Shown here piece after piece: positions 6,156-61,323 of a DNA stretch of 64,000 nt. Below the pieces are notes generated by a model, which was not told where the DNA came from, made no database searches, and saw only the letters and a list, made by a program, of their open reading frames with translations. The first letter of the stretch is position 1; every line of letters starts with the position of its first letter. The position numbers and the translations under genes were made by a program. This DNA is from Phlebiopsis flavidoalba (Eukaryota > Basidiomycota > Agaricomycetes > Polyporales > Phanerochaetaceae): contig JAOCPU010000052.1 of the NCBI GenBank assembly GCA_035772785.1, positions 186,001-250,000 of the forward strand, written 5' to 3'.

Positions 6156-7383
6156 CTAGCGGTATGATTCGAGGTACGCCGTCTCATTGTTGTGAGCAGT
6201 ACATCCACCAGGCTAACCGGACTTGCAACAGAATTGTCTGGCCGACGGTGGGGTGTAGATAGTGTGTGCTTGTTTGTCGTCGCGCATGTTGCCAGGTCGT
6301 GCTGTGCTGTGCACGTACGCCCACATATATAAGGCGGCTCCTCTCTTTATCGCCTCCGCTATCACTCGCTATCGTGTCGCTGTTGTGCCCTGTTGTCTCT
6401 CTGCTGTGCTGATGTCGCGCCCTTTCGCTATCAAATCCATATGCCTATGTTCCTCCCTGCCACATGTGTCGCGTTGGACCCGGCACCCTGGTACCGCGGC
6501 GTGGACCCGGCCACCTCTGTATGCCCACAACGTAGCACAACATCCCATGCGCTGACCCTCTCACAAGCGCTTAGCGTGCATTCACGCGTCCTCCAGAGCA
6601 GACGTGCATACCCATGCAGCGCTCACCGGAGGGGAGCTAGCTGTGCCCGAACGCAGGCGATCTGAGGTCTACACGGCGTAACGACGCCATGACGAGAATT
6701 CACCACTAGTGCCGCCACACACCGATTGTCCGCTCTCTGACTTGAAATTGAGCGGTAAAAGTGAATGTAGGGATATGTTAAACTGTCGGCTACCGTGAAC
6801 GTATTTATGCAACGTCGCGCACAGATCGCGTGAGGAACGTAGTGTGCGAAACCTTGTGCTCATGGCGGTGAGTATTGAAGCTCCTCTGCACTCAGACAGA
6901 TATCATAGCCTCATTGAGTGAGGTGTGGTGGGTAGCGAAGTAAAGGCTGAGCTGCAGCAGGTACAGCTCCGTCGACTGACCAACGTTGGAACGGCACCCT
7001 TTGGAATGAGATCTGGTTAGAGGGGATGCAAAGTCCGATGGGAAATGTAATTGCAATGAACGTATTTGCGGCTCGTAACGGATGCTAAATAGCATCAAGC
7101 AAGTCAGAGTGTTTACCTCCGACGTCCAACTTCATGGTACGTACAGTTACCTATGACGCGTGTTGCGTCATTACACCAGAATCGTGTGAGAAAACAAGGA
7201 TCGAACAAGGCGTGATGTTTCAGGTAACTTGTATCTGGTCGGCTGGTTCATGTTTGGCACTCGTTAGCATTCACTTCAGCTAGAAGTTACACACAACCTT
7301 TTTCGTAAGTTCGTCGCGCATCGGATCCTGGCAAGACTCAATGTTCATGGGGACCACCGCTCATAACAATACGTCAACTAACA
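6156..7383. other. no supported gene
   Basis: A TATATAAGG box at about 6335-6343 is followed by pyrimidine-rich sequence, as in a fungal core promoter. The following open frames (6393-6665) show no domain and stop quickly. From about 6870 stops are dense on both strands. Nothing else was recognised. Confidence 0.45.
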
Positions 7384-9696: not shown

Positions 9697-12600
9697 GTGT
9701 TACTTGCGCCCTTGCCCAATCCACGATATCTAACCGCCGAGTATGTTTTCGATGAGGCCGATATGGCGTGGAATCCTCCCAACTCGGACATTCCAGACGA
9801 AGAGGAGCTCGAGACAAACGGCGATTCGATACCATCGCAGTCATCTTCTTCTACGCCGCCCACAAACAAGAAGCTGGGGGAGCGGACTTTTGCCACGCTT
9901 GTAAGCATGTTTTCTACTCGAATCAGGAATGCCACTGATGCGGCAAATCCAGACACACGACCCCGTTCTCCTCGATTGGTCTACACAACGAGACACATTC
10001 CTCGACGACGATGCTGCTGCGAGGGTATGGGTTCCGTGGGCAAAAGAAGACTGTGTGCCCGAAATGTACAGAGCACTACTTCGCGCGTCCCCGAGTATCG
10101 CTGTCAAGACTGTTTCAGGGCCGCGGTGGTGTGCCAGAAATGCCGTTGCATTGACAGCCATGTCGATGAGCCGTTTCAATCGCATACAGGTACGTTGAGG
10201 CTATGGCTAAAACATACAACGTGTATTGACGCACACACGGCGGACGCTGGAACGGTCGCTATTTCGAGGCCACAACCCTACAAAGCATCGGCCATGTCAT
10301 CCAGCTCGGACATTCACTCGGCGAATACTGCCCAGCCCCTGTCCTTGCGCCCCGCGCGTTCATCGTGATGCACACCAACGGACTCCACCCTGTCACCGTC
10401 CAATACTGCCAATGCGACAATCTGGCCAAAGGCGGGCACCCGTGTCCAACAAACTACTACGGTCGGAGCTCTATCCCGCGACACTCGACGATCCGACGAC
10501 GTGTTGCACTTTCACCCTCCTCACCATGTTCCATCGCTTGACACTGCAAAGCAAAGTGACCGCCTACGACTTCTACAAGACGATGGAGAAGCTGACGGAC
10601 AGGATGGGGCTGAGGAAACACTACGTGAGTAGTTTCGTCGACTGCCGTCACGTGCGGCCGTTGTTAAACCGATACAGGAACGCCTCAAACCATTTCTTCG
10701 GATGGTTCGTTCAGAGTGGCGACATCTCGAAGATGCAAATCAAACGTGCGGGCCGAAAGGTTGCATTTCCGGATGGGTAATGGCGACATCTCCGAGAAGA
10801 ACGTGCGTGCGTCCCGCGTCGGTGGAAAGGTCCTCGCTACTCGTCCTGGGGAACTCTGCACCCGTTGCCCCGGCCTGCCCTCGCCCTGGTTTGTCAACTT
10901 GCCTGCAAATTGGGCGGAAATGTAACCGATGATTTAAAGTGCGCCCTCCCTTTGTCAGGTACCGCATCCGGTGCTGACACATCTCAGGTTTGTGTACACC
11001 ACGTTCGTCTTCTTTGCGATCGATGCAAAACTTCCGCCTAAAGCGCGCCGGGCGATCTCGAGCGAGGCTCGGGATCCCGCCATGACATCTGGCTGGGGAT
11101 ACTTTTGTACCGGGCACTGGATATCGCGAGCATCTTGTGAAGGTTCGCTGACCAAAAAGACGTACGTGCTCGCTCCGCTGTGTAGTTGCGTCTGCTGACA
11201 GGTGCATTCAGATCAGTACATGCACTGGCTTCGCCGCATTGCTGAATGCCAACAAGGGCTTCCGCGGATACGCTACAACTGGCGTTGCGATGGCGATCGA
11301 TGCCCGACATGGCTTCATCCAATGCCTGCCCAACGCGGCATCGGCGATTTGCAGAAGGTGTGAGCGGTGAGTCATGTGTGCTTACAAATCCGTTCTGGAA
11401 CCTTGGCTGATTAGGCTATTATCTCAGGTATTGCAAACATCGACTACGTGTGTGTATGTCGGCCCTGGGACATGTGCCAAGAGAGACCAGGCTAGTCCTC
11501 TCCTATGACATCATGTGCCAGTGGTCGATCCACCTGAAAGAGCGCATCGCAAGCCTACCAGAGCATCTCCAGATCGAGCTGCCCGTGATTGTGAAGACGT
11601 GCGGTATGTAATCCCCAAGTACCACCTCAACGGTCACACGGAGAAGGACCACAATCGTTACTACTCGCTCAACCTGAAGCCGGGCATGGGTAGGACGGAT
11701 GGTGAGGAGCCTGAGAGCGCGGTTGGTCGCGGTTCGACGGCACGGCATCCAGCACTCGGGAGATGGGCCCAGGCTCAAGAGAGGAGACTCTCGAAGATCA
11801 TTTCGAGTATAATAACGAAGAGAAGTTACTACGACATAGGTATGTAATCAACCCCCCCCATCAACTTCGTTACTGATCCATCTGCTATAGGGCCAGCGTT
11901 AGACAAGCGCGAGCGCAAGGCCGTAGCCGCGCTTCGTCAAGTTCGTGGTCTGCGTGAGGGTCGTCTGTTCGATATGTTCGTGCGCGGAGCTTCAGCCAGC
12001 GCACGTCGAGGAGTGAGGACGCAGAGCATCCTTGCGTACGAGGCCGATAATTGGCCTACCCGACCCATATCATTGGCAGCAGACTGGTAAGTGGATAACC
12101 ACGCAATTAGTTCAGTTCGCCAATTGACATCGACGTTTGACAGGCATGAGTGAGGCAGAAATCCGACTCCAGTTGGCTACCGAAGAAGACAACGTGGCGA
12201 ATGACGTGAGGGTGGGGCTACGTTGCATGAAATGACGCCCGCGGCCATGATCTCGACCCTCCTTGGTCTGGAGGAACAACAGTGGGTTGCCCTATCCCTT
12301 TCCATCGCATCCGTCCCTAACGTATGCTAGCGGAAGTTTCGTGCCAAATATATCCGCCAAATGCCGCTGCGACTGCCTTGCAGACGGCCGAGGTCCCTGT
12401 CCAAGCGGGCTACACTGCGTCACCGCATCAACGCCATCCGAGAGGTTTCAATATATTTACATGCCGTGTGTGGCCGCGTTACTTGCAAGGCATCGACAGA
12501 AACTCCTCACCCCGGCCTCGACAGGCCCTCGTCAGGACGATAGAGAAGGCGCCGACCTCCCCGAGATGGCAGTCCCCCTCTTCCTCCCATCCCAGCTTTC

Positions 12601-13879: not shown

Positions 13880-15090
13880 GAACGTGGGAGCGGGGCAGTG
13901 CCGCCAGCGAGAGGCGGCGTGGTAGCGGAGGCGGGCGACGGCGGTGGGCGGTGGCCGTAAATGGTGCCAGCACCACCCTTTTAGTGAAGAGCAGAGGGCG
14001 CGATGCGCGAGCGAGCGCGCCGTGGGCAGAGCGGTGCCGGTGGGGGGAAGCGGCGCGGCGGGCAAGCGGGAACGGCGCGCCGCGGGAGCAGCGCGGTGAG
14101 CAGCGTGCGTGCAGAGAGCGCCGTCCGGCCAGCGCAGTGATCTGACACACAGTTGTCAGGGCAGTGGCGGTGGTGGAGGGGCGGCGCGGAGCCGCGAGCG
14201 GCGCGCGGCGGGCGCGGCGCGGCGCGGGTGCGGCGCGCGCGGTGGGCGCAGCGCGGAGCGGCGCGGCGCAGCGAGGCAGACGTGGCGCAGAGGGCGCGGT
14301 GACGCCGTAATTGAGAGCGTGGTGAGCTGGCGGAGGAGCGGCGCGGGAGCGGCGAGCGTGGCGGGGAGCGCGGCGCGGGGGCGCGCGGGCGGGGGGCGGG
14401 GGCGCGCGGCGGGCGCAACGGGCGCGACGGGCGCGGCGTGGTGAGCGCAATGACGGCGTCAGCAAAATCGCAATGGGTAGTCCGGGGGAGGGGCGGCGCG
14501 GTGCGGCGAGCGTTGGCCGGGGGCGCGTGGCCGGGGCTGCGCGCGCGGCGGGTTTGTCGAGCGCGGCGGGCGCGGAACGGCGCAGGGCGGCGTGGCGACG
14601 TAGCGCGGTGTGTGTGCGATTGGTAGGCTTGCCGAGGCGTGGCGAGGCGTGGCGAGCGTGGCGAACGTGGCCGGGCGCGCGGCGGCTGGGGCGCGCGCGG
14701 CGGGGGGCGGGGGAGCGCGGCGGGCGCGGAACGGCGCAGGGCGGTGGCGACGTAGCGCGGTGTGTGTGCGATTGGTAGGCTTGCCGAGGAGCGGCGAGGC
14801 GTGGCGAGCGTGGGCGAGCGTGGGCGAGCGTGGCCGGGCGCAGTGTTCGTGTGCGCTGCGGGGGCGGGCGGGCGGGGGCCGCGGCGGGCGCGGGGGGGGG
14901 TGTCAGCGTGACGAGCGCCGTGCGGCGGGCGCAGCGTGGCCCGATGCGTTGTGGCGAGGCAGACACGGTGGGACGCGGTGCAGAGGGCGCGGTGACGCCG
15001 TAACCGAACGCGCGAATGGTGGGCAGGCGGAGGAGCGGCACGGGGCGGCGAGCGTGGCGAATCGAGGGGCGGGTCGGGCGCACAAGCCGA
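13880..15090. repeat. G-rich strand-asymmetric low-complexity island
   Basis: About 1.2 kb of GCGGCG/GCGAGCG/GTGGCGAG-type sequence is strongly G-over-C on the plus strand. Long internal direct repeats are visible: a ~110-bp segment around 14559-14670 recurs around 14713-14826, and a segment at about 14265-14363 recurs at about 14950-15060. Quadruplex-type G runs lie at 14377-14402 and, with single-base loops, at 14860-14878. Very long stop-free frames on the minus strand (478 and 444 codons, Arg/Pro/Ala-rich) are a by-product of this composition and are not annotated as genes. Confidence 0.8.
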
Positions 15091-15913: not shown

Positions 15914-16794
15914 GCGCGTGCTCATGTCAAGAAAGAGCACAGCGCTACTCAGATCAAGACAGGCGCAACTCCGGAGTCAGAGAAAATGGTAGTTGACCTT
16001 ACGCTGTCTCCGAGCCCTGGCCCTAGACACTGCGGTCTACCTTCCCAGGAACCCCAATTGGAGGCTCACCGATCTACATTGAGTCAGACTCTGATGATCA
16101 AGACAAGGATAGCGCACTTCGTCTCATTGGCGGCTCAGATATCTGCCCTCTAGCAAATTACCTCCACTCTCAATCCCGTTCTGGCTCCTTTTCCCAATCT
16201 CATTCTCGTCAGTCTCATTCTCATGCTCAATCTTTCAACTCGTTCTTCTCAGGCCAGTCAGGCATCCCATCCTGAGGCTCCAACACGTAGCTTCCATAGC
16301 TCTGGCTCAGTTCAAGACGCAGTCATGGACCACAGCTCAGACTACGTCAAGCATGAACATGACTCTGGCGGCAAGGATAGTGACCATGGCAGCACCAGCT
16401 CTAGTCTACCCGCTGACAGCACTGGTGAAGAGTCAGATTTACAACCTCAGTGGCCACAGGACTGGGTAACCATTGACGTTCAACGCGGATTCCGTAAATG
16501 CGCTCACCCAGCTACCCAAAGCGCGGTGTATCTGTGGCGAAGACATTCGAGGAGTGCTTTGCTGGTGTAAAGTACAAACCCTCTACATTCTACGGTCACC
16601 GCTCTCGATGGGACAATGCGCCTGCAGCTCTTCAAGAGAAGTACCTCAAGCTCAGCAGGAAAGATGAAGGTCGATGGAAATACTTCATGTGAGAAGCCCC
16701 AGATCCATGTGCAAACTTGAAGAGCGCTCAAAAGCGGCTTACTAGACAGCAAAAGCGCGAGATGAGTCTAGAGTCTGTCAAGCAGGAGCCGTAG
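15914..16794 (+). pseudogene. FYxHRxRW-module protein with SUMO-type motifs, decayed
   Basis: The N-terminal part contains VKKE (15926-15937) and MVVDLTLSPSP (15986-16018). In a shifted frame come PIYIESDSDDQD (about 16066-16104) and a Ser/His-rich stretch. The next frame has DYVKHEHDSGG (16340-16372), WPQDWVTIDV, and the conserved C-terminal module FEECFAGVKYKPSTFYGHRS followed by RW (about 16546-16611), KYLKLSRKDEGRW, and a final VKQEP. Such modules end many Agaricomycete proteins of unknown function found among transposons. VVDLTL fits a SUMO-interacting motif, and VKKE, VKHE and VKQE fit the SUMO acceptor pattern. A TGA at 16690-16692 (probably from CGA) and frameshifts near 16040, 16250 and 16510 break the gene. 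Family placement is moderate; SUMO function is inference. Confidence 0.55.
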
Positions 16795-17589: not shown

Positions 17590-18300
17590 GGTGAGGCATT
17601 TCTGCCATTGGCTAACAGGCAGTTTGAAGCAAGCACTTGTTGTTATGAGCATAGCCGAATGTCCTAAAATAATTGTTACCTCGACAACAATCGTTATGGG
17701 GCAAAAGGTTTATAAAAGGAGCTCAGACGAACTCACAATGAGCAAGACTCAGAGTTCAGAAGACCCCAGCACAGAGGCTCAGGGCACAGTATATTTGCAA
17801 CAGATAGCAACTGAGACACTCGCAAGTTATAAGTTTTATCGTATTATCCAAGCATTAGACGTAGTACCCACAAGTTTCCGAAGCATATTTAGATATATCC
17901 CTCCATTAGGCTAGGCAGCTTTTGACCTGCGAGAGGCACGAGATCTCTTGAGGCAGTGCATAGAGTTCACTGTGTTAGCAAAAGTCTTTCCGCAAAAAGC
18001 GGTAAAAGGGCTAACTTCATCACGACTGAAAGTACTTTGAGGAAGCGAATCTAGAATATTCCCGAAACAGAGGTATTGGCTTCTGCTGGTATACAGAGAC
18101 CCATACGACTTGATTTTGAATACATCTCATCTAAAACAAACACTACACACTTCAAAGAAGGAAGTAAACTTCTTATACGCGATCGACTGCGTGACAGGCA
18201 GAAATAATCAACTGGTAAAGAATTTGGTAAGTAGGAGTTACACATTCCTATCGGAAACAGCGTTAGTAGGCAATCATCACGCTCACTAGCACACGGTATC
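17590..18300 (+). pseudogene. unidentified mobile ORF, copy 1 (copy 2 inverted at 55 kb)
   Basis: Forward coding relics include AAFDLREARDLLRQCIEFTV, VFPQKAVKGLTSSRLKVL, FPKQRYWLLLVYRDPYDLIL and LKQTLHTSKKEVNFLYAIDC. A diverged copy on the opposite strand at about 54985-55610 preserves the same blocks, for example VVPTSF-like and GLTLSRLKVL-type segments. That both copies keep the same peptide order shows a former coding sequence carried by a repeat. In-frame stops follow PPLG (about 17912) and KVL (about 18037). I do not recognise the family and see no nuclease motif. It may be part of a retroelement or a captured gene. Confidence 0.5.
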
Positions 18301-18990
18301 ACTAAGAATCAAGGATTTTCCACATCCGTCCCCACGAACAACTGTGATAGCCCGGCGTAGAGGCCCGGTGAACCACAGCAGAAAACCTACCTTTGGGTCT
18401 GGTTCACTACACGAGCATTTCTAGCTCACACAAGCCCAGTAACCAAGGGTTTTATTTTCTGGCATGACACCGTGGTCTTCGGGCTGCCTCGCGGTCATCG
18501 CCGTCTTAGTGGGAGTGGTGTGGTGGTGGTGGTGGTCAAGTGGACGCAGCTGCGCGCCTACCGAGCGCCGAGAAACTCTGCTCCCTCCGCTACCACTGAC
18601 ACGTCGTCCGGGACTCGATTTGCGTCGCCGTGTCACACTGGACCCTCGAGGTGAGTACAAAACCTGCTAGTGTATAAGAGAAGCAAAACTTACTTGTTTG
18701 CCACGCGTTTTGACGTGTTTTTGACGTGTTTTGACGTGTCTCTTGAAGATTTCAATTGGGCAAGGGTGGAAAGGTGTCTTGATGCATTTTGCACGCGTAA
18801 CTCTCCTGGATTTTCTTCCTGTTGGAGGATTCAGGTGAGTCAAGCTAGATGTGTTGATAGTTCAGTGTTTGATATTTATCAAGGCCCAGCCCTGACCTTT
18901 GACTACGGAATACTGAACTGAGGACTATAAAGAAAGGTAAGCAAAATCTGCACCCTGTTCTTTGCAATTATATTCTGTTTTGTACTGTAT
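18301..18990. other. no supported gene; short GACGTGTTTT repeats
   Basis: A short tandem motif TTTTGACGTG repeats three times near 18708-18740. A GTGGTGGTGGTGG run near 18520 makes a poly-His frame on the minus strand. Nothing else was recognised. Confidence 0.45.
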
Positions 18991-19212
18991 GGAGGATGTG
19001 ACGGGCCCGCTCTCGTGTGCACGCTGCCTCTACAGAAATTCCTTTTTTTTTTTCAGCAAATACTCTGGCGCAGATCTGAATGGGCAAGGATGTGACGGGC
19101 CCGCTCTTGTATGCACGCTGCCTTACCATTCAGACTGCTGCTTGATATTAGTTTTCCATGCTCTGCACAGTGTTGAGGATGTGGACGGGCCCGCTCTTAA
19201 GTGCACGCTGCC
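18991..19212. repeat. three dispersed copies of a 37-bp motif
   Basis: The motif GAGGATGTGACGGGCCCGCT followed by CT..(T/G)..TGCACGCTGCC occurs at 18991-19028, 19088-19122 and 19175-19212, about 90 bp apart, with dissimilar sequence between copies. The core GACGGGCCCGCTCT is unchanged. They lie just upstream of the TET/JBP relic. Confidence 0.75.
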
Positions 19213-19330
19213 ACAATATTGTGTATCATGGCTTTTTAATTTGTTTTAACGTCTCATTCCATTTGGGGATAGTAAAATAGAGTGCTCACATGTCAATGTA
19301 GATGATAATCCAGATGAGGACTTTACGCCC

Positions 19331-21325
19331 TCAAATGACCACAAAGTCATTCCTGTGGCGGTAAACCTCTCTAAAAAGCCTGAGGCTGCCCTTGAGCATG
19401 AGACCAAAGACGAGAAACCCACCAGAAAAATGTCGTGCTACTTTTGGAGCAGGCATACAGCATGGGTTTGCTTGACGATCCTCCATCTCCTCCATCTCCT
19501 CCTCCCTCTTGTTCTTGTTCTCATTCACATCTTCCTTCCTCACGATCTCGCTCTCCGCTCTCCTCTTTCTCAACACACTCTCCTTTCTCAGTCTCTACGC
19601 TGTCGCTCTCCCAGCCGTACTCCCTCTCAGATGTTGACATCTAGCTCTCATACCTATGCTCCTTCAGAGTCATCTGCTAGAGGTACAAAGCGTGTTAACA
19701 ACCGTGCCGCCCTCGCCCGCTGCCTTTCAGAGGGCATTGGCAAGAGAGGACAAGGATAGCAAGCCTGCTACGTACTCCAATGCCCCCTTGAGTACAAGGC
19801 TTTCGCCCCCAAGCCTGCTACGGAGTGTAAACTCAAGTCCTGCATCTCTCTGGAATGTTTCTATGGGTGCCGCAAATCTACCTGCATGTGAGGGTGCGTG
19901 GAAGGGCAAGCTGATACTGAGGGTACGCGTGTGCGTAAACTCTGAAGGAGGCAATGGATATGGGCTTGGAAGTAATTTCCTGGGATTGGAGTGTAAGTAA
20001 AATCTAAACAGAGTGTGCTGTGAAACAACCTAACATCATTTGTAAGCCTGCTACCCAGCAGCTTACCCAATCCGTACACGGACACGCTTACGTAAGCTGT
20101 CCGTTTCCTGTTTCTTCGCTCTCGTCTACGCTCTTGCTAGTCTACCACCACCCCCCGCTCGTACCACTGTACCTGTAGTCACTCTCGTTGTCCAATCGAG
20201 CGTGGTCTCCTAACAACCTCTGTCCGAGCCCGACCACGCGACTGGCGCCAGTATTCTCTGCTCGGCCAGCAGGGTTCCAATCATTCTGAATACTAGCACT
20301 CCAATTCTTCTTGTAGACCAAGAAGGTCGCATTATTGCAGTTTTAGTTGGGCACCCCGCTGACATCCCAGGCCGAGTTCCTTGGCAAGAGACTCTGAATG
20401 ACGCTACTGCAGCTGGTGTAAAAACTGGACCAGGATCTACATTGGAGCAGGAGTGAGGTGTTACCTAAGCCCTCTTGATCTGACGGAACAAATCGTCGTG
20501 GAGCATATCACAGTGTGGATATTGGGCCATCATTTGGTGGTGGACAAACGTTTTTGTGGTTGTTTCAATTCAAGTTTCCTGAAGTCTGATGATTTTGTCT
20601 ACAGCGTCCAATGAACTTTGCACACACGCCTCACAATAAGGCTGTTCTGAAGGAGTACAAGGCTCGGAGCTCAATTGAACGCTTATCCTCCTCATTTGCA
20701 AGTGGTACGTCTTTGTTATAGTATCATTGTGAATTAGTCTGAATGTTTATGTGCGTAGCCTCATTTGCATATTATGCACCAAAGCTTTACCAGCATTACG
20801 CAAAGACAATGACAGGTATCTACAACAATGAGCCAGCTGCTATACTACCTGATCCAGGCTCTGTGTGGCCTTTGCAAACACATAATACCGAAAATGCACA
20901 GTCAGTCTTACACAAACCAACCAAACTGCAATCTTGGGTTTGGGATGTGCGCAATCCAGAGCTTGGGCAAATTTGATCCACACGGAGGTGGTCATCTAAT
21001 CCTCAAGCAGCTGGGTATTGTTGTTGAGTTTCCTCCGGGGCTCAACAATTCTTTTACCCTTTGCAGTCATCACTTATGGAAATACGCCAATAGCATCTCA
21101 CAAAACTTGCACTTCCTTGGTACATTATGCAGCAGGCAGTTTATTTCGTTGGATAGAGCATGAATACCAATCATGGGGAATCACTTCAAAAAAACAGACC
21201 CAGTCCCGCGCAACTGCTGTTTGGCATCAGCGTACTACCATTAGACTTTCCTTTGCTCTGAGTCTTTTTTCTAAAGTAGACGAGCTCATTGATGATCATA
21301 TAAATATTTTTAATAACTGATTTGT
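19331..21325 (+). pseudogene. TET/JBP-type 2OG-Fe(II) dioxygenase relic
   Basis: Recognisable blocks appear in order: PILLVDQEGRIIAVLVGHPA (about 20300-20360), RRGAYHSVDIGPSFGGGQT (20493-20550), NFAHTPHNKAVLKEYKARSS (about 20613-20672), a 54-nt intron (20705-20758), SFAYYAPKLYQHYAKTM, LGKFDPHGGGHLILKQLG (about 20957-21015), VVEFPPGSTILLPFAV (about 21022-21072, after a frame change), NTPI, and HYAAGSLFRWIEH. This matches fungal TET/JBP proteins, which oxidise 5-methylcytosine in DNA using Fe(II) and 2-oxoglutarate. Where the family has HxD the aligned residues are N-Q-P (20915-20923), and the distal His before NTPI is Tyr (TAT 21075-21077); the 2OG-binding Arg block is also lost. It is therefore a dead copy. 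The N-terminal limit (19331) is uncertain. It is convergent with the KDZ gene that starts 35-40 bp away. Confidence 0.75.
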
Positions 21326-21358
21326 CTAGCTTAGCATATACCATTATAGAATCTAATG

Positions 21359-23600
21359 CTACTCTAAGTTTGTTGCCCCCCAATATCCAGGAACCTTGCT
21401 ATCTGCCTTGAGCTTTGCTATAATACAACGATTATGTCGAATAATAAGCTCATCTAGGAAGAAATTAAATCTGTCCACAGTCCATTCTCTACAAATTGTG
21501 TTATAACCCGCAAGCCAAGCATTAGTTTGCTCAGCAATTGAAGAGTTAAAATACCAGCCGCCATCTTCACTTTGCAGCTCAGGATAAGCAGCAGGATTAC
21601 AGTGCTCTTGGCAGAAAGTGTCTGTAATACTGTGCTTTGAAGTGAAATGAAAGACGTCAACCAAAAGTTGGATTTTGAATGCCACCAGGGGTCATTCTGA
21701 ACGCATTTCTTTAGACCACAGTTGTTGTCGAACATAATGTGCTCAGGTTTATGACCCGATGTCTCAAGGTGCATCGCATAAATTCCTGTAAATATATTCA
21801 TAAGTTGATCCAAATACTATTCAGATTGGATAAATTGTCTTGAGCACATACCGCAACAGTGTGTGCAGTGCTTCTGCACCATAAAAGGTAGCACGAGCAA
21901 GTATAACCCCACAGGGAGCCACAATAATCTGCTCATTTGTGTGTTCGTTTTTTTTCAAACTGAGCACGGATGCGGTGGTTTCCAGTATCTAGCTTGTCAG
22001 AACAAACTTCAGAGCTGGTATATTCTGCAAGAATCTTGCCCTGGTCCTCAAGCAGGAACTCTACCTCTGCTAATTCCAAACTCTCCAGGTCCTCTGAATC
22101 TCCGCCAGTGGGTGCAGAAATAGCGGTTCCAGCTTTGCGTGCACGTTTCTAAGTGAGAATGCAGAGTAAACCGAGATTTTCCGCGGGCTGTGTGGTGTTT
22201 CCAAATCTCTTGATGTGTAGGGTCATTGCATGAAAGTCCACCATTAAACACTAGGCTTTCTTCACAGCCAACAATAGAGCAGATGTGATTACGTTCTTGA
22301 TGTTCGGAGCAAAAGCAATGTTGTTGGTTGGATAACAGAGTGTGGCAATTGTGTACACCACAGCAAGGATGACCAATGGTGGCGCCATCCACGACAACAC
22401 AAGAAACCTTGGCTAGATTATATATAAATAAGTTTCCACAAGATTACACTGGTAGATAGAAACGTACACAGAATGTTATCATTTTTCTGTTGGCTCATAC
22501 CATTTGGTGCAAACATCACAGAAGTGCAAGGACTCTGGCTGTCCTTCGACTTGTAACCAAGCATTACATTCTTATACGGCGCGGCGCAAACATTGGTCTT
22601 GATGTCTGCTATCAGGTACTTCAAGAGTAACTGAGCAAGAGTGTGAGTCTTCAAGCAGGCTGATAATCGTAAAGGGGCCCCAAATATGCTCAATACGAAG
22701 TTTTGAGCCAAACTGCCACTTATAGCCATGCTGTACTGTACAATTAAAAGGAGCTGTTATAGCCAAATCTTCATATGCAGCAGCACAACCAGAAGCTGAG
22801 GTCCTAATTTTTTGACAAAAGTTAGTACTATTTTGAGCTCTAATTATAATATATAATAAAACTGCACACACATACCATGATATTCCCATAAGGGTAATAA
22901 AAATGATTCACCAAACACCTTTCGATAAACTGGTGTTTTTCCAACTTGTATGGCTTCAGGAATATTCCGATAATAATATCTTTGACTACGTCACGGTTGT
23001 ACGTAGAAAATTATGATGGAAATTGGTTTTACATGCTAATAATGAGGGTTGAATTGGCATCTTGGAAACAGTAAGTTAATAATAAACTCACTGGTGCATG
23101 TTAAGTGAACATGATAAGCTGGTAGGGTGCCTTTGGATAAGGAGATAGACTACAGCCTGTTGATGACGCGCGCTTCAGAGGTGTAGAGTTGCGGCAATTA
23201 TTGAATGTGCAATATAAAAAAGGAGGATAAAAACAGTTGAGGCTATATTCAATAGGAAGAAATTATAAGCTAATAAGCTACGGATTAGTCTGAATTACGT
23301 ACTCAATCCCTTTTGTGATGCTGAGGCTCCCGAAAGTGTTTTTTGGGATTTTGGCGTAATTCTTCAACATAATCATCACTCCAAACCATCTCGCGCAAAA
23401 CCGCCCAGCACTCCTGAATCAGATACAGCTCTATATTTGAGCAACTGGCCAAGGTATGCTTGAATGGCAGGAGGAAGAAAAGCCGGAGGAAAAGCTGGAT
23501 TATGCTTGGTATGTTGTGTTAAGTAGAATTCATTCTTGAGTAAAGTGGCATGCATAATAAACTTCCAAATTTGACTTAGTGAGAGCTTGCTCACGGAGCA
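21359..23600 (-). pseudogene. KDZ transposase with CxC5/CxC6 clusters, decayed
   Basis: Read leftward: LSLSQIWKFIMHATLLKNEF (near 23580-23520), QECWAVLREMVWSDDYVEEL (about 23415-23356), IEHIWGPFTIISLLED and VEGQPESLHFCDVCTKW (about 22690-22500). Then VDGATIGHPCCGVHNCHT, FCSEHQERNHICSIVGC, CNDPTHQEIWKHHTARGKSR (22395-22165), NEQIIVAPCGVILARATFYG (about 21940-21880), MFDNNCGLKK, VDVFHFTSKHS and NSSIAEQTNAW. The Cys/His cluster is that of CxC5/CxC6-KDZ proteins. The D of FDNNC, the D of VDVFHF and the E of IAEQTN are the likely nuclease triad. Frameshifts near 23420 and 21690 and a TAA near 22572 inactivate it. Short GT-AG introns remain visible. The 3' end lies tail-to-tail with the TET/JBP relic, suggesting one composite element. 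Confidence 0.85.
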
Positions 23601-27935: not shown

Positions 27936-27938
27936 CTA

Positions 27939-28846
27939 CAGTGACTGACAAAAGTGTGTCACATTTAGATATTAAGCACTCATCAAAGAATTTTGAGTAA
28001 GATATTCATAAAAAAGAGCTGTTGCATAACTATAATAAGGATTGTATAGAATAGCATGGAGGGTTTTTCTTTGAGATATATACACACATATACCATAAGT
28101 AGTAATAGCCATTGGACAATGAGCAAAATGTACTAAATTTGCTCTTACTCAGATATTCTTTTATTAGACAGCAATAAAAATGTTGGTTTTGCATTTAAAA
28201 ACTAATATTGAAAAATACCTTAATATCATCTCTATACTGTATATATGGTACATTAAAGCTTACCATAGCTAGCTACATATTATAGCCACAATCATTTAGA
28301 GCCAGCAAGGTCAAAATGGAATTTTAGTTCTCACCTGCCACACTTGACAATAGAAAGTAACCTGCCCCCTTTTTTCCACCACACATTCTGTGTTCAATTT
28401 CTTATAGCTGACGGCAACAAAAATCAGATATTACTACATACTCTATTACAGCTAATATATAATTTCAATGGTATTTCACATATAGCTGCGACAGAAAGAT
28501 CAATATTCATTCACTAATGATTCATCATCAATACATACTATGCATGCTTTTTATACAATTACCCATTTAATCAAGCTATTTTATCAATAGTATATATAAT
28601 GCATATCTTTTTCTTTGTTGGTGTAATAAAGGAATCTTTCATCAGTGCAGTTTTAATACTATTTGTTTATTATACAATCATAGCTGCCATATATGGTATA
28701 TATTGCCCGGAGTATTGAAAATGATGTTCATTATCATAGTATCCCACAAAAAGAATTGCTTTCAGTAGTTGCGCTATGAATATCTTAAAATATATTCTTT
28801 AAAAATGCTGAATATCCAAGTGTGACACATTTTTTGTCAGCCACTG
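27939..28846. mobile_element. 908-bp mariner-like non-autonomous element, copy 1
   Basis: The left end CAGTGACTGACAAAAGTGTG and the reverse complement of the right end CAGTGGCTGACAAAAAATGT are inverted over about 40 bp, and TA flanks both sides (27937-27938, 28847-28848). CAGTG ends with a TA duplication are characteristic of Tc1/mariner. The interior is AT-rich with no open frame of useful length. A homologous copy lies at 60454-61315 with collinear internal sequence. Confidence 0.85.
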
Positions 28847-28949
28847 TATATATGGTCTTAAAGGGCATTTTTCGGTCGCTGTTGTTTGTTCTCTACCTTT
28901 CATCATCTCACTCGCCATCTTCAACTCCTTGCTCACCATGGCGTCCTCG

Positions 28950-54600: not shown

Positions 54601-54984
54601 GTTCCCTGTGTATCACCCTCTGTTACCAGTCACCATAAGCCTCTAAATTCACTTCCTCTATCAAGGAATCCTTTCACCTCGCTCAGGGCCATAGCCTTGT
54701 CACTGGAAAAGGAACTGCCATTTTCGATCTTGTCTATGGCTGGTCAATAATTATCTTAGCCAGCCACTCTTCCTGCCCATCTTCTATCAACATTTGTCTA
54801 GGCTAAGCATACTTGCGAGAGGGGATCAAGCCGGAGTCAATCCGCACTGAAGGCCGGTAATGTTAATGTGTAAACCAGACCCAAACATGGGTTTTCTGCT
54901 ATTCATTGGGTTTCTACGCCAGGTTATCATGGTTATTGGTGGGGACAGATACCGAGAATCCTCGGTTTTGAGTCATACTTTGTG

Positions 54985-55610
54985 CAAGTGAGCAAGGTGG
55001 CTGCCTACTAATGCTATTCACAAACAGGGAAATATATTTCCGCCTGCCATGCAGCTGATTTTGTGTAAAAATTTGACTCCTCCTTACAAGTGTGTAGTGT
55101 TTGTTGAGATGAGATATATTCAAAACCAAGTAGTATGGGCGTCTGTATATCATCAGAAGCCAATACCTCTGTTTCAGGAATGTTCTAGATTTGCTTCCTC
55201 AAAGTACTTTTGATCAGGATAAAGTTAGCCCTTTGACTGCCTCTTGCGGGAAAACTTTTGCTGGCAGTGAGCTCCATGCACCTGCCTCAAGAGATCTCGT
55301 GCCTCTCACCAGTCAGCAGCTGCTTCTAGCCTATTGCCCGGATGGAATCTAAAAATGCTGCAGAAACTTGTGGGTACTACACCTCATGCTCGAAACACAA
55401 ACTCATAACTTGTGAGTGTATCAGTTGCTGTCTGTGGCAAAATGCCATTTTCTGAGCCTCTGTGCTCGGATCTTCTAAGTTTTGTCTTGCTCACTGTGAG
55501 TAGTGTTGCCATCGGCTCGATCCAGCTTGCTTCTTGCTCTGGCTTGATGGTTTTATCCAGATTGGGTGAGCTGCGCCGCACCAAATCATCAATCATGAAG
55601 CCGGCTTGAG
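54985..55610 (-). pseudogene. unidentified mobile ORF, copy 2 (inverted relative to 17.6 kb)
   Basis: Read on the minus strand, the sequence aligns with 17.7-18.28 kb in order: the MSKTQ-like start (SKTKLRRSEHRGSENG), TATDTLTSYEF, ARDLL-type, KQRYWLL-type and LNKHYTLVRRSQ-type segments. Nucleotide identity is patchy, with many single-base and small indel differences, yet the peptide blocks recur. That supports a real ancestral protein. Frames are broken in several places (for example after VFRA). Identity of the family is unknown. Confidence 0.5.
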
Positions 55611-60380: not shown

Positions 60381-60453
60381 CATGCCACAATATGCCAAGC
60401 TAAACATCGCATATTTCAATAGCTTCCCTATAGGCTTTCACTCTGGCTTGCTA

Positions 60454-61315
60454 CAGTGACTGACAAAAGTGTGTCACACTTGGATATTGGGCACTCAAAG
60501 AATTTTGAATAAGATATCCATAAAGGGAGCTTTTGCATAACAATAATGAAGATTGTATCAAATAGCATGAAGAGCTATTTTTGATATATACACTTATATT
60601 GTAAGTAGTGATAGCCATTGGATAATGAGCAAATACATTAAATTTGCTCTTATTAGAGATTCTTTTATTATACAACAATAAAAATGTTTTGCATTTGAAG
60701 GTTAATAATAAAAAATACCTTGATACCATATCTATACTGTATATATAGTGCATTACAGCTTACTATGGCTAGCTACATGATATAGTCATGATAATTTAGA
60801 GCCAGCAATATAAAAATAATATTTTATTTGTAATTTGCCACACCTTACAAAAATATAACTGTCTTTTTAACACATTTAGTATTCCATTTTTTATAACTGA
60901 CAAAAATTTGATATTACCATATACTCCATTATAGCCAATATAAATGAAATAGTACTTCACATATAGCTGTAACAGAAATAATCAATATTCATTCAATAAT
61001 GATATTAGATACATATTATATATGCTTTTTATATGATGACTTATGAATTGAGATATTTTAACAATAGTATGTTAAATGCATTTTTTTTTAGTTGTGTAAT
61101 AAAGAAAACTTCTATTAGTATAATTTTAATGTAGTTGTTCATTATATCATTATAGTTGCTATATATAGCATATATGTAAATCTTAAGAATGATATTTATT
61201 ACTTTTGTATTCATCCACAAAAAAATTGCTTTTCTGTAGTTGCTCATTTAAATATCTTATAGCATATTCTTTAAATGCTCAATATCCAAATGTGACACAT
61301 TTTTGCCAGTCACTG
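60454..61315. mobile_element. 862-bp mariner-like non-autonomous element, copy 2
   Basis: The left end CAGTGACTGACAAAAGTGTG and the reverse complement of the right end CAGTGACTGGCAAAAATGTG are flanked by TA (60452-60453, 61316-61317). The interior aligns with copy 1 (27939-28846) throughout, including TAATTTAGAGCCAGCAA- and GCTAGCTACAT-type landmarks. Both copies are in the same orientation. No transposase frame is present. Confidence 0.85.
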
Positions 61316-61323
61316 TATATTAC

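Follow-up and report, generated by a model that had tools for sequence, protein, structure and literature searches.

In basidiomycetes, TET/JBP dioxygenase genes are reportedly linked to KDZ transposons, and Iyer and colleagues, writing in PNAS in 2014, are said to have described a divergent HMG-domain protein as an accessory of these elements. TET genes on fungal DNA transposons have already been published (Kojima 2025, PMC12730594). AG-type TET genes are carried by TET+ Kyakuja and Zisupton (KDZ) transposons of Agaricomycetes, and for Polyporales that paper reports only Kyakuja as a TET+ element. Kyakuja has 5'-CA..TG-3' termini and a 7-bp duplication, and lacks terminal inverted repeats; the words CxC and HMG are absent from the main text (PMC12730594). 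Also relevant is a multi-copy 6,792-bp insert in poMSH4 of Pleurotus ostreatus, which has a 739-aa CxC5/CxC6 open reading frame (ORF), three 46-bp direct repeats and a microsatellite cluster; no KDZ-type transposon adjoins it, and its authors doubted a link to KDZ (PMC7641404). Here we describe a locus in a 64,000-nucleotide stretch of Phlebiopsis flavidoalba DNA (hereafter the window; contig JAOCPU010000052.1, positions 186,001 to 250,000, or G000:C52:186001-250000, of a 36.3 Mb assembly). The locus is likely a decayed basidiomycete-type DNA transposon that encoded three proteins: a DDE-type transposase with CxC5/CxC6 zinc clusters, a TET/JBP dioxygenase and an HMG-like protein.

The TET/JBP-like relic lies on the plus strand at 19863..21320, with homology over 19863-21314 and a TGA stop codon at 21318-21320. 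Four TET-like proteins used as queries align collinearly over 20304-21314(+), with summed E values against the window of 9.9e-33 (P0113), 6.8e-32 (P0125), 8.6e-32 (P0128), and 4.1e-22 (P0022). When reversed, the same queries reached best E values of 8.5, 2.9, 1.4, and 8.0, respectively, and two further reversed proteins (P0124 and P0122) reached 1.2 and 0.18. Because all six reversed controls gave only E values of 0.18 to 8.5, the matches are not due to chance. N-terminal homology is weak and starts at 19863; no TET homology was found at 19331, where an earlier note on this DNA had begun the gene.

The Pfam profile Tet_JBP (PF12851) has no match in the scanned TET ORF pieces of the window, and relatives at C126, C111, C49, and C1 in this genome score 12.8-20.5 bits, under the curated cut-off of 34.9. 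Among TET family members, 12/42 match this profile at E<=0.01. The C49 and C126 relatives, used as queries, returned 327 and 684 proteins, and among the 120 matches listed for each, 4 and 10, respectively, carry PF12851. PF20515, used as another TET probe, gave 0 matches and is uninformative because its controls were silent too. Solved structures searched by sequence with the relative's TET core, the TET pieces, and a TET profile yielded no relevant chain at E<=1. The TET-type double-stranded beta-helix fold was found in a model of the relative P0022 (Phanerochaete sordida), which was tested in place of the relic. CcTet of Coprinopsis cinerea (8jkk, 7w5p, 7vpn) is the top fold match (E 1.3e-12), although its identity to P0022 is just 13-16%, and is followed by NgTET1 (8.2e-9), CMD1, and TET2 (1.2e-6). 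The locus resembles the TET+ KDZ elements in pairing a TET/JBP gene with a DNA transposon in Agaricomycetes and in a TET fold nearest to CcTet (PMC12730594).

The window TET is homologous to TET/JBP dioxygenases, yet it is a dead copy that cannot act. HxD and one Arg do not vary across 25 aligned sequences, and a distal His hardly does; we take these to be the metal and 2-oxoglutarate (2OG) ligands. The HxD...H metal triad is also given in PMC12730594. Triad and 2OG-binding Arg are intact in C126 and C111. In the window relic the distal His codon has become TAT (Tyr, 21075-21077), the Arg codon has become TGC (Cys, 21108-21110), and HxD is lost where a frameshift falls, near 20890-20930. The catalytic exon (20758-21146) runs through three frames in the window versus a single frame in C126 and C111.

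Only 38 bp (21321..21358) separate the TET stop codon from that of a CxC5/CxC6 transposase-like relic on the minus strand (21359..23591, TAG stop 21359-21361), close to the 40 bp or so noted earlier, and the two genes lie tail to tail. The CxC6 domain (22192..22395, minus strand) is in an open frame; the surrounding ORF, 22048-22443(-), matches PF18721 with E 7.1e-22 and 77.9 bits against a cut-off of 27.5. The stretch 23461-21365(-) aligns with four long CxC5/CxC6 homologues of 648-699 aa, whose best E values are 2.4e-56, 1.98e-43, 1.49e-42, and 2.54e-39, and homology to the C126 copy extends to 23591. The CxC5 profile gave no match in the window itself, and CxC5 and CxC6 are both present in 40/40 relatives of the protein. 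With a frameshift between its FDNNC and VDVFHF motifs, the window copy appears, from its sequence, to be decayed.

The label "CxC5/CxC6-KDZ transposase" from the earlier note holds for its first half. The minus-strand protein has the CxC-type zinc clusters of KDZ transposases and lacks their KDZ domain: PF18758 was found in 0/40 CxC5/CxC6 proteins at E<=1 and at none of the nine CxC6 loci in the genome, the nearest match being 10.4 kb off, in the window, and hhalign of the CxC5/CxC6 family against pieces of 13 KDZ loci gave a probability of 0.3%. A model of a relative resembles integrase-type cores, with an RNase-H core bearing the D, D, and E of DDE transposases, and these three motifs are still kept in the window relic. 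The model suggests that CxC5/CxC6 proteins are themselves integrase-fold transposases, in contrast to the doubt of the Pleurotus authors about a KDZ link (PMC7641404). A KDZ-domain (PF18758) relic at 11426-11816(+), which precedes the TET relic by ~8 kb, is a separate transposon piece.

The third gene, a decayed HMG-like relic at 16444..16773(+), has 40-51% identity to pieces at C126 and C59 and contains 2 TGA and 1 TAA codons internally. No Pfam or NCBIfam profile matched this protein, and its solved-structure matches are at chance level; the name is therefore provisional and taken over from the literature. TET linkage and an HMG-type accessory protein are reportedly features of the KDZ/TET/JBP elements of Iyer and colleagues as well. 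HMG-like genes were detected at four places (C126, C59, C5, and the window), all within 6 kb (up to 6.0 kb) of a CxC6 domain, and thus near four of the nine CxC6 loci. The genome searches rank best candidates only, so all locus counts given here are lower bounds.

C59 and C5 share a unit with CxC5/CxC6 and HMG-like genes that is 92.5-97% identical in aligned parts and has a common, abrupt left end; they are recent copies. The right end of C59 is an inverted match of its left end, with TCTGTGCC arrays, delimiting an element of ~8.2 kb that encloses both genes. Its flanks carry a CTTCGATC/CTTAGATC pair, an imperfect candidate 8-bp duplication of a kind that 6.7% of chance trials also give. The window genes run HMG-like(+), TET(+), CxC5/CxC6(-), which matches C59 except for the TET gene lying between the other two, and C126 repeats the order HMG-like, TET, CxC5/CxC6. 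Broadly, the composite element proposed in the earlier note is probably correct, but its limits lie further out: on the left, the element should include the HMG-like gene at 16.4 kb.

Upstream of the window TET gene is an array of a ~35-bp cis repeat with the core GGGCCCGCTCTYGWGTGCMCGCTRCC, in three plus-strand copies at 18993..19029, 19087..19123, and 19177..19213. A coding role was rejected because successive copies (spacings 94 and 90) fall in different frames. A whole-genome scan with a limit of 2 mismatches gave 10 matches, of which 3 are in the window, 3 in C111, 1 in C4, 1 in C59, and 2 in C1, against 2 for the backwards sequence used as control. A second copy in C4 is offset by a single base, and C126 has two copies that have diverged. 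The array is located 5' of TET in 4/4 genes of the subfamily (window, C126, C111, C4). The single C59 copy lies between its HMG-like and CxC5/CxC6 genes, without TET. Of the C1 matches, C1:1511201 (1 mismatch) lacks any convincing match to TET or HMG-like genes within the 1.5 kb read around it, and C1:3100128 (2 mismatches) does not rise above the control.

Several observations weigh against a single element. The window yielded no element ends, and no convincing terminal repeats surround the TET and CxC5/CxC6 pair, including at 18.3-19.4 and 23.6-24.0 kb, where inverted repeats had been suggested. TET was detected at 2/9 CxC6 loci (window and C126) and not at the other 7/9, which include C59 and C5. 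At C126 the TET and CxC5/CxC6 genes are divergent, unlike in the window. The element cannot be recognized by tail-to-tail order, which is not conserved, and reading that order as a sign of joint travel is not supported. Among 11 TET-like places, the same 2 are near CxC5/CxC6 genes and 5 (C2, C18, C40, C49, C55) are near PF18758 matches, ~1.5-5.2 kb away, with TET upstream and co-directional in all 5; the other 4 (C111, C4, C1, C12) have neither CxC5/CxC6 nor PF18758 in the stretches searched. The earlier note's counter-case, in which other copies never carry the dioxygenase, does not apply, since 1/8 other CxC6 loci has TET, thin support as this is.

One alternative, which we regard as unlikely, is that TET, accompanied by cis repeats of its own, was inserted as a cassette into or beside a CxC5/CxC6 and HMG-like element, the 38-bp spacing being chance. 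C111 and C4, which are 96% alike over 2050 bp, combine TET and cis repeats, with neither CxC5/CxC6 nor HMG-like genes seen in the sequence read there, and C59 and C5 have the CxC5/CxC6 and HMG-like genes and no TET. However, the cis repeat that remains between the two C59 genes favors loss of TET over its never having been inserted, no terminal structure is seen at C111/C4, where the common stretch ends gradually on the left and at the C4 contig end on the right, and Kojima argues that TET genes are not transposons themselves (PMC12730594). We infer that TET belongs to the C59-type element rather than having been inserted into it. That the relics are unrelated neighbors thrown together in a transposon-rich stretch seems very improbable: the window does hold other relics (the KDZ-domain piece at 11426-11816 and dispersed repeats) and the TET and CxC5/CxC6 orientation varies, but the three-gene order recurs in C126, the HMG-like gene was detected near CxC5/CxC6 genes only (4/4), and the cis repeat is common to the TET subfamily and a CxC5/CxC6 element.

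In living copies of the three-gene transposon, the CxC5/CxC6 transposase would move the element, and TET would oxidize 5-methylcytosine (perhaps also N6-methyladenine, 6mA) on it, loosening methylation-based silencing. We infer this demethylation role from the TET family. More tentatively, CxC5/CxC6 elements could be a separate lineage with inverted TCTGTGCC-array ends, a transposase outside Pfam KDZ, a TET gained independently of Kyakuja, and an iteron-like ~35-bp array upstream of TET to which the zinc-cluster or HMG-like protein of the same element may bind. Unlike Kyakuja, C59, on which the comparison rests given that no window ends were found, has inverted ends with TCTGTGCC arrays, a GAGAGC start, and at best an imperfect 8-bp duplication (PMC12730594). 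A CxC5/CxC6 gene is shared with the multi-copy Pleurotus insert, for which, unlike the window, the available text mentions no TET (PMC7641404). Among the papers listed on KDZ, CxC6, Kyakuja, Zisupton, and TET/JBP, no title or abstract start dealt with elements combining CxC5/CxC6, TET, and HMG, in a check that did not extend to the figures and supplement of Iyer et al. 2014. New features may be the carriage of TET by the CxC5/CxC6 clade, the combination of these two with an HMG-like gene, the inverted-array ends, and the repeat upstream of TET.

TET-bearing fungal transposons have been proposed as mobile DNA that brings along an enzyme to counter its silencing. With this locus, one genome has two transposase clades partnered with TET, and the conserved cis array raises the question of whether it recruits the element's proteins and whether demethylation of the element occurs at that place.

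CpG observed/expected is 0.47-0.54 in the window, lower than in relatives (0.69-0.91). GC to AT and AT to GC transitions show little bias in TET (21/158 and 22/197) and the transposase C-terminus (15/157 and 15/206), and some bias in the CxC6 part (20/115 and 10/97). C to T changes at CpG versus non-CpG sites in three pairs were 3/12 vs 9/78, 2/10 vs 6/78, and 3/12 vs 9/56; methylation-driven decay was dropped as an explanation, the counts being too small to claim it.

Among the relatives, C4 (L081 5898-7589) has a 1.7 kb stretch directly downstream of TET that is absent from the otherwise matching C111. C126 has tandem arrays at 6437-6920 and 10053-10633 (L059, L060), upstream and downstream of its CxC5/CxC6 gene, reminiscent of the microsatellite cluster reported for the Pleurotus insert (PMC7641404). 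In the window, a dispersed repeat between the HMG-like gene and TET (17731..18407) is 74% identical to an inverted copy at 54870-55501, and 14001-15000, left of the HMG-like relic, is 80% GC and rich in tandem repeats. A ~0.9 kb direct repeat, 77% identical, occurs at 27936-28851 and 60451-61320; the former copy has inverted ends of ~74 bp at 80%, and the repeat is perhaps a small transposon family.
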